In this document: positions 18,301-21,300 of the stretch, piece by piece
Numbering within the stretch: the first letter of the stretch is position 1
Layout of the letters: each line of letters opens with the position of its first letter
Made by a program: the position numbers and the translations under genes
The notes under the pieces: generated by a model
Database searches by the model: none
Told to the model about the DNA's origin: nothing
The model's input: the letters and a program-made list of their open reading frames with translations, nothing else
Source: Centroberyx gerrardi
Lineage: Eukaryota; Chordata; Actinopteri; Beryciformes; Berycidae
NCBI RefSeq assembly: GCF_048128805.1
Contig: NC_135998.1
Span: forward strand, 28,541,492-28,605,491
Length of the DNA stretch: 64,000 bases
Direction of reading: 5' to 3'

Positions 18301-21300
18301 GTAGGTGAGAGACTAGTGTTACGTCATTTAGATTATTATGGTATGTGCCTCTCACCTTTGAGCATCTTGACAGCCACCTTGCTGAGGCGTGTGGGCTTAT
18401 TTTTGTCAATCCCTACAGCCTCAGCCAGCACCACCTGACCAAAACAGCCCTCTCCAAGAGGCTTCCCCAAGGTCAGCCTGAGGAAAACATACCGGAACAC
18501 GTTAGGCAGTATTCACTATGTTTTGATTTCAAAGCATTACACATGTGAGATTGCCGATACAGAACTTTTCCTTGACTGCAGTGGTACCGGTATACTGTAG
18601 ATCAGTGGTTTTCAGCCGTGGTCCATGCAGAGTCTGCAGGTTTTCATTCCAATCAAACACCACAGCAGCTGACCGTGGACCATGACTGAAACCCACTGTT
18701 ATAAATGGTTATGGGCTGTAGTACCTGTCACGCGGCAGCTCCCAGAGAGGATCATGGGGAAGCTCATACTCCGACACCCCTGCCAGGATGGTGGTGGCTG
18801 CGCTGGAGAGACGGGACTGACGCATCAAACACATCCCCGACTGGAGGGAGGATGAGGACTCAATGGACACCTACACAGGCAGAGAAGAAGAGCATGTTTG
18901 TACGTTATGTGGGTCTTTGCAGCATCAATGCTAAGTCAGAGGGAGGGGGAGACAGGGACAGAGACAGATAGAGACATGTTACCTGTCTCCTGAGGGGGAT
19001 ACTCTTGGCTAGTTTTTGGACAGCCAACTGGCTGTTGAAGTCACACTTCTTTGGGGCGCAGCAGAGCCGGCAGATGATTGCTATGGCAGCGAGGATGACG
19101 ATGATGAAAAAGCCAAAGCAATAGATGAAGATCTCCAAGTAGGTCTGAGAAGGCACCGGGGACGGGGGCAGATCTGAGAGGGGGACGAGATACTTTTTAG
19201 TAGTATAAAGCATTATATTAACGTTTTTTGTTTATTTTTTGACATTTTCTGCATATCTTAGCATACCTTGAATTACAGTGAGCCATGCTGAATGGTGGGA
19301 GACTCCAATAGAGTTTCCTGCCAGGCAGGTGTACACTCCTGCATCATCCACAGTTACGTTCTTCAGGGTCAAAACCTCCATTTCCTTGTCTGTTGTGTTC
19401 AAACCTGCAGTCTGAGACAAAGACAAATGTAAGAGTGGAGGTGTTCATTAAACTCAGCAAGGACATGCCTTGAGTATAGATAACTAGGTACCAATCGTAT
19501 CACATCTACACTACTGAGCACCACAAAATGTTCACACTTTTGCGACCAACTTTAGGAATACAACTTAAACTAAATAAATAAATAAATAATTGGAAAAATC
19601 CCATGTTCCCTTGTTATATTCATTGGATTCAGCTTTTCTTGTGATTGGCAAAGCAGCATGGTGAGTACATAATACATGCAAGGCCCTTGGCGACATGCCA
19701 GACACAACAACCACACTGCCTGAGTGTGTCTTCCATCACGATTCCACAACACATCATAGATGTGGTTTTACTTTATAAAAACACACTCTGTCAAAGTGAA
19801 ATGCAACCAATGCCATGCAATATCAAAAGAGGCTGACTCGACCACAGCCAGTGATGGTTGTAACAAATACTTCTCACTTTGCACTAGCTTACTCCATACA
19901 AAGTTATGAAGTACTAACATTTTTAGTCTACACCAGGACGTTAACTTAGTTTTGCATAGCCATAGCTTTCTCAATATTTTTTAGTGCGGTCTAACCTAGA
20001 GATAACCTAGCTACCTTGTCAATGTGACAGCTTCCTGACATCCACCCTAGCAGAAGCCTGGTGTTGAAAGACACAGCGGGACCTTTCCAGCTGTGTTTGA
20101 CTTCCACATTCTATATGATTCCCCAAGCATTTGTTTGATTCATTAGATCAGGAGTGGACAACCATTCAATGATAAGCATATAACTATATGCTAATGCAAG
20201 CATGGATTAAGTTCATAATTTCCTAACCATAATAAATAATACATTCTGCCTCATGGCTAATTAATGGCTAAATAATCTAATCTATAATAATATTATAATG
20301 GTCAGAGTCTAATCACAGTCCAAAGGAGTATACAGTCTCGCTTGAATTAAATCTAATTAAATTGTTGCTTGGAGGACATGGGTAAAAAGACATTACCCTT
20401 AAAAAACAAGAACAAATTCGACATCCAGTATTGAGAAACCTAGTCCATTTTGAAGTGCTGTATCAAACATTTGGTTGATAAGATTAGGCCCATTCTCACA
20501 AATTAGTGGCATTGGTTGCAGTGATGCAAAAATTTAAGGAATTGAATTGTTGGTAAAAAAAAAACAATGTGACATTACCTGTCTATTTTGGTCAGAAATC
20601 TTCATTCACATGATACATATTACCATTACCATATACATGAATTAATTTTGTAATGACATAGTAATTGCTATGAAAATCAGAAAGATTTAGAAAGATATTT
20701 AAAAGAATTCAATTTAAGAAAAATTTAAGGCTGAAAAGCTTTCATGCACACAGGCACTACATTTTTAAAAACAATACTGTTTGGTACAAATACAAGCTAT
20801 TAACACAGGTGTTTCCAAATAATACATGTACATACCTTCAGAACACGGACATAAGGAAGACCGTCTGGTCCCACTCTGGTGCCATTGACAGTGATATGTT
20901 TGAGCCACTGGATGTGCGGTTGGGGGTCACTGAATACTCGGCACACAAACTCCACATTACTACCAACAACAGCAGTTCGATTGGCTGGAAGACCTGCCTG
21001 GAGGATTGGTCTGTGTGGGGAACGCTCTAGAATAAAAAAAATAAAATCAAATAACAAAATTTAAAAGAGCTAAGTTGCAACATGTATATGAATATAATGT
21101 ACATAGACCCTTTTAAAATGCATTGATAAGCACTCTTACCGACTACATCCAGCAGGTAGGTGTGTTTGAGACTGCCGTATTCGTTCTCCACCACACAAGT
21201 GTAGTTACCTTCATCAGATGGAACCACCGACTCCATTATTAGAGTCCACATGTGGTCTCTGATCTGAAAAGTTGAGAGAGAGAGAGAGAGAGAGAGAGAG

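Follow-up and report, generated by a model that had tools for sequence, protein, structure and literature searches.

Does the fgfr1 gene in this window, a 64,000-nucleotide stretch of Centroberyx gerrardi DNA, still possess the splice switch that places a Val-Thr (VT) pair in the juxtamembrane segment of FGF receptors? The VT-plus form of FGFR reportedly arises from use of a non-canonical /GA donor (Twigg, 1998), this donor is said to be conserved (Brackenridge, 2003), and the VT insertion reportedly enables FRS2 binding (Burgar, 2002). Passages of published papers locate the VT-plus donor of FGFR1-3 six bases beyond the GT, at a conserved non-canonical /GA site (PMC4176328, PMC5714493, PMC2423196), and one ranks the FGFR /GA donor as the most intensively studied member of its class (PMC5714493). 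As excerpted, these sources say that the /GA site requires both the GT that precedes it by six bases and two intronic sequences further downstream (PMC4176328, where the gene is printed as FGF1), mention a G-rich element for it (PMC2423196) and state that in human FGFR1 it is U6 pairing that sets the site, U1 being bound further off (PMC8724738, PMC1779574). Other excerpts report rabbit FGFR3 transcripts both with and without VT (PMC3664496) and state that FRS2 binding is made possible by the VT insert (PMC8110382, citing Burgar 2002). Within the literature that was searched, no mention was noticed of VT in a duplicated fish fgfr1.

The gene lies on the minus strand from 23925 to 15395 and encodes a receptor tyrosine kinase in 16 coding exons, which join into an intact frame (2139 nt, 712 amino acids) with GT-AG boundaries at all 15 introns. 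Two Ig domains, a transmembrane segment and a full kinase are contained within this one frame. Exon joining places the signal-peptide exon (MFSSRC...) at 23820..23925 and the acid-box exon at 21874..21975, followed by D2 and the first half of D3 at 20836..21693 (exons 21693-21521, 21263-21140 and 21026-20836). Similarity searches located a IIIc-type D3 exon (19267..19411) and the seven exons of the tyrosine kinase domain (15584..18477), and the transmembrane/juxtamembrane coding exon at 18983..19173 is 61% identical to its counterpart in the other fgfr1 gene of the genome. The kinase insert (17794-17984, minus strand) reads EYWSGP against EYSYNP in the human FGFR1 construct (EYSYNPSHNPEEQ), with one of the paired tyrosines missing; DYYKKTTN is retained, as is EYLDLS, which we take to be the PLC-gamma site.

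Five FGFR loci are present in the genome: a catalytic-loop comparison that scored 150 of 183 candidates genome-wide gave 90-100% identity at 5 places and 71% at the next best. A locus search matched 9 places at E up to 10, of which five were accepted as FGFR on the basis of a nearby catalytic loop and further FGFR exons matching around it. C17 was thereby accepted at E 3.89, weaker than four dropped places (E 0.28 to 2.8) that had no nearby FGFR catalytic loop among the 150 scored candidates. The accepted loci are the window gene (C2), the other fgfr1 (C8), fgfr2 (C15), fgfr3 (C17) and an fgfr4-like gene (C11). The names of C15 and C17 were taken from their best structure matches, and C11 is presumed to be fgfr4 because of the exons it contains; its kinase scores highest against FGFR3 (572.5 bits), narrowly above FGFR2 (572.0). 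Upstream of the D1 exon of C11 (L032, about 6819-7325, minus strand) are extra FGFR-like Ig matches, one D3a-like (38%, E 1.6e-7) and one IIIb-like (43%, E 4e-6), which perhaps belong to a neighbouring Ig gene and were excluded from the comparison.

The best structure matches of the window gene kinase are to FGFR1 (568.8 bits, the best FGFR2 match reaching 542.1), and in a tree that compared FGFR1 with FGFR2 and FGFR3, leaving out human FGFR4, the kinase groups with C8 and human FGFR1 at a clade support of 100/99. The original prediction had called the gene fgfr1, and both measures bear it out. C8 is thus a second locus of the FGFR1 clade; the closest pair among the window gene, C8 and human FGFR1 is an open fork in this tree. 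The window gene has the longest branch of the clade, 0.14 as against 0.024 for C8 and 0.029 for human FGFR1, or about five times longer. It is the faster-evolving of the two fgfr1 genes in the genome and probably corresponds to teleost fgfr1b, with the a/b label inferred.

The juxtamembrane exon terminates in AGG AGA CAG (RRQ) at 18983 and continues into GTAACATGTCTC on the minus strand. The following exon (18725..18870), also read directly, starts at 18870 with GTGTCCATTGAG (GTG TCC ATT GAG), is preceded by CTGTGTAG, and gives the junction RRQ-VSIE. Direct reading of the intervening letters shows GTAACA at 18977..18982 (minus strand), which carries the canonical GT donor for the VT-minus form and spells the Val-Thr codons in the VT-capable paralogues; TGTCTC follows it immediately, from 18976 onward. 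The original prediction had described precisely this arrangement, and the CAG end, GTAACA and subsequent TG match letter for letter, as does the RRQ-VSIE junction. Its argument that the VT-plus form needs a second GT six bases on does not hold, as C8, C15 and C17 have GA there. A GT criterion cannot separate VT-capable from VT-incapable genes, because these three paralogues would fail it too.

What does separate them is the sequence beyond GTAACA. In C8, C15 and C17 the CAG is followed by GTAACA|GAAAGTAGATA, which together make GTAACAGAAAGTAGATA, a stretch of 17 intronic bases that is identical in three of the five FGFR loci and of which the window gene retains the first six only. This identity, across three paralogues of a single genome, surrounds the intensively studied /GA donor and shows that what is seen in the window gene is no chance pattern. 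By paralogue comparison and donor scores, the lost /GA place in the window gene lies at 18966..18976 (minus strand), where TGTCTCTATCT stands against the GAAAGTAGATA of the paralogues, and its donor region as a whole reads GTAACATGTCTCTATCT. Between the two fgfr1 genes of this genome, the comparison that had been proposed comes out as C8 with GAAAGTAGATA after GTAACA and the window gene with TGTCTC. The claim that no VT-plus donor exists therefore survives on another ground, and only because TG replaces GA at +6. The corresponding region of the fgfr4-like C11 is CAG|GTACGG, GTACGGGACAC, and a run of G just beyond the 17-base stretch occurs in C8 only.

Donor strength was scored with a small matrix built from 61 other donors of the five FGFR genes, with the best GT in the neighbourhood of an exon end serving as its training donor and the 5 juxtamembrane donors kept out; 1 of 67 exon ends (C11 D1) was omitted, having no GT within reach. 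For the GT site of the window gene the score is 6.4, exactly as in each of C8, C15 and C17; this site outscores 10 of the 61 donors, which makes it a weak donor. At +6 the window gene scores -20.7, as against -0.7 in each of C8, C15 and C17 and -4.3 in C11. Measured against GTAAGT, the +6 site matches at 0/6 positions in the window gene (TGTCTC) and at 5/6 in C8, C15 and C17.

Could VT-plus still be produced through another non-canonical site? The GT on which the /GA site relies survives, and so do the VT codons, still reading GTAACA, yet what stands at +6 is /TG, without one consensus match, and the next GT, at +7, would shift the frame. The downstream sequence that excerpts of two papers report as needed (PMC4176328, PMC2423196) also has no counterpart in the window gene. 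Elsewhere in the 112-nt intron (18871..18982, direct reading), which is pyrimidine-rich at its start, other in-frame donors were sought and rejected, scores above 0 being reached only at +7 (0.7) and +79 (1.4), neither of which is in frame. A /GA site displaced deeper into the intron was likewise rejected, as GAAAG is absent from all 112 bases. We therefore regard continued VT-plus production by such a route as very improbable. Searching the window for the 17-mer GTAACAGAAAGTAGATA with up to 3 mismatches gave 0 matches, a result of little weight given that 0.19 were expected by chance.

Scans with the 20-base GT/GA sequence gave 0 matches in viral contigs and 1 in genome contigs (L050), which falls within an apparent bacterial reading frame and was taken as chance. 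Of 19 genome matches to AGACAGGTAACATG, 8 lie at C6:33484287-33484718 of G000, several at 19-base spacing, and this interval is a tandem repeat containing the AGACAGGTAACATG motif.

An assembly error at the start of the intron would give the same appearance. The reading comes from a single assembly, and a weak six-base repeat at 18949-18968 (score 33), which starts within the pyrimidine-rich stretch of the intron (83% C+T over 42 bases), partly overlaps the place of the lost donor. Against this, the exons on either side are undamaged and in frame, the intron between them is complete with GT-AG ends, and the window gene differs from C8 in further ways too. The specific error that had been envisaged, at 18976-18981, is ruled out as a one-base event, since the bases after GTAACA differ throughout and the intron lacks GAAAG. 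We give the error reading very little credence.

Those further differences went beyond the original prediction. C8 carries a D1 exon, has IIIb as well as IIIc, and includes EEPCLPKFPPHSNGAAIKKR in its C-tail; D1, IIIb and this C-tail stretch were not found in the window gene. In the intron at the expected place of the first-Ig-domain (D1) exon (21976..23819), neither similarity search nor Pfam found one: D1 queries from C8, C15 and C11 gave no D1 in the window (best C8-D1 match, E 3.8), and 4 of the intron's 14 frames of at least 40 amino acids had no Pfam match. No IIIb exon was found in the window either; the best IIIb match was the IIIc exon itself and others had E of 1.4 or more. At the place that IIIb occupies in C8, C15 and C17 (the intron 19412..20835), 4 of 8 frames of at least 40 amino acids again gave no Pfam match. 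Altogether 8 of 22 intron frames were submitted to Pfam, and two positive controls matched. The same C8 queries recover D1 in C11 (5.5e-9) and C15 (1.9e-8). They also recover IIIb, with 1e-20 in C15 and 4e-8 in C17, where the IIIb-type exon is diverged. IIIb and IIIc are both present in C8, C15 and C17, and the window gene has IIIc only. D1 was found in 3 of the other 4 loci.

The /GA absence is read directly from the DNA; D1 and IIIb are called absent on the outcome of similarity searches. The frame of the window gene joins cleanly without D1. A diverged D1 exon could nevertheless have been overlooked in this fast-evolving gene, because D1 is about 37% identical between paralogues and was also not found in C17 within the 40 kb taken (L027-L030). 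The proline-rich C-tail stretch was not found in the window gene, whose last coding exon (15395..15493), compared with C8, ends in a short C-tail that stops after SAHSCSST and is without the EEPCLPKFPPH stretch of that paralogue.

Missing exons, a missing tail and the longest branch of the FGFR1 clade are also what a decaying duplicate on its way to becoming a pseudogene might show. The 712-amino-acid frame is intact, however, with every intron GT-AG and a complete kinase domain, and over 13 exons compared with C8 the gene has dN 0.13 and dS 1.72 (saturated), for a dN/dS of about 0.08. These values indicate purifying selection on the window gene, and decay appears highly unlikely.

We consider it likely that the /GA donor has been lost from the faster-evolving fgfr1 gene and that a single form is now predicted, with two Ig domains, IIIc, no VT, a short tail and an intact kinase. 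The conserved /GA donor six bases after the GT would have been replaced by pyrimidine-rich DNA while the canonical GT was retained, presumably as turnover of such DNA erased the site. Splicing would then be limited to the GT; as this donor alone remains, RRQ would be joined to VSIE without Val-Thr. Since D1, IIIb and the proline-rich C-tail were also not found, we infer one receptor form as the transcript output. Two Ig domains, IIIc and no VT are also the make-up of the beta-IIIc VT-minus isoform of mammalian FGFR1, a gene that yields other splice products besides. The predicted product of the window gene differs in that it is seemingly the sole form encoded and has a shorter C-tail.

Relative to the tandem GT/GA donor of vertebrate FGFR1-3, the window gene is alike in the exon, in CAG|GTAACA, in reading frame and in VT codons, and differs in that /GA and the downstream AAGTAGATA are replaced, leaving the GT site alone. 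With the fgfr4-like C11 it shares a single juxtamembrane donor without VT, and in both genes a single exon for the second half of D3 separates D3a from the juxtamembrane exon. C11 differs in having a D1 exon and GTACGG, whereas the window gene belongs by its sequence to FGFR1 and has GTAACA; these two features are a sign that its VT loss is secondary. The retained GTAACA is weak at +5 (C) and +6 (A), positions at which C11 differs; this is a hint that /GA disappeared not very long ago, and the retention could reflect either recent loss or some remaining role. The presumed zebrafish orthologue, fgfr1b, is also a second fgfr1 copy and is described in an excerpted source with a IIIb/IIIc event (PMC5703972), unlike the window gene, in which IIIb was not found. 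If the two are orthologous, IIIb loss would be later than the duplication.

FRS2 docking would no longer be adjustable by splicing and would perhaps be reduced, with the EYLDLS motif retained. FGFR3 without VT and FGFR4 signal through FRS2, which counts for the view that the receptor is constitutively VT-minus and still docks FRS2 well, the V-S-I of the next exon substituting for V-T-V. The FRS2-bound FGFR1 peptide (1XR0) ends in RRQVTVS, and VSIE in the window gene retains the first V, with T replaced by S and the second V by I. In the human protein the sequence after VT is VSADSSASMNS (8jqi), so that a mammalian VT-minus junction would read V-S-A, and V-S-I-E is nearer to V-T-V-S. The VT-minus junctions elsewhere in the genome are VSV (C8), VSL (C17), VSA (C15) and YSV (C11, VT-less). 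Weighing against good docking, the change from V-T-V-S to V-S-I-E places an acidic residue at the fourth position, and the VT insertion is reported, in an excerpted source, to enable FRS2 binding (PMC8110382). We rate good docking as a serious contender that falls somewhat short of an even chance. It disputes the FRS2 step only and is compatible with loss of the /GA donor, in which case the loss would have removed the switch and not the docking. Docking may also be partial, and the weak FRS2 signalling of the original prediction, extrapolated from mammalian receptors, is plausible at little better than even. With GT and VT codons kept, a natural loss of /GA in another FGFR1 is an existing experiment on the purpose of the VT switch.

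A broader reading is that one fgfr1 duplicate shed the known splice repertoire (D1, IIIb and VT) together with the proline-rich tail, and thereby the whole of a juxtamembrane-tail brake, becoming a fixed receptor with rewired output and leaving isoform diversity to the other duplicate. An excerpted source describes, in FGFR2, a tail segment PCLPQYPH that binds the VT-containing juxtamembrane segment VTVSAESSSSMNSN and occludes FRS2 (PMC10349056). The brake would be absent as a whole because the window gene is without both VT and a PCLP-like tail. According to the same source FGFR1, unlike FGFR2, is constitutively bound to FRS2 (PMC10349056), and as the brake is not reported there for FGFR1, we hold this reading to be doubtful. 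With the loss of the /GA donor as the preferred account, the window gene would still be a concrete case of a duplicate seemingly trading alternative splicing for a fixed form.

Several other features of the window were noted. Cichlids are reported, in an excerpted source, to have tandem fgfr1b copies, two or possibly three (PMC6123627). A similar arrangement was rejected here, as the one FGFR-like catalytic loop in the window, on the 150 of 183 candidates scored, is that of the window gene. A weak kinase match at 4241-4396 (29%) was likewise rejected as a second FGFR; the surrounding plus-strand frame (4142-4432) matches the general protein kinase domain (PF00069, E 3.5e-18), distinct from FGFR. 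Upstream of the fgfr1 gene, a 255-residue minus-strand frame at 29771-30535 matches reverse transcriptase (RVT_1, E 1.4e-27) and by this match is a putative retroelement fragment. Frames matching the BTB_2 family (46307-46756, minus strand, E 6.2e-9) and the actin family (62413-62889, plus strand, E 3.3e-16) are possible synteny markers.
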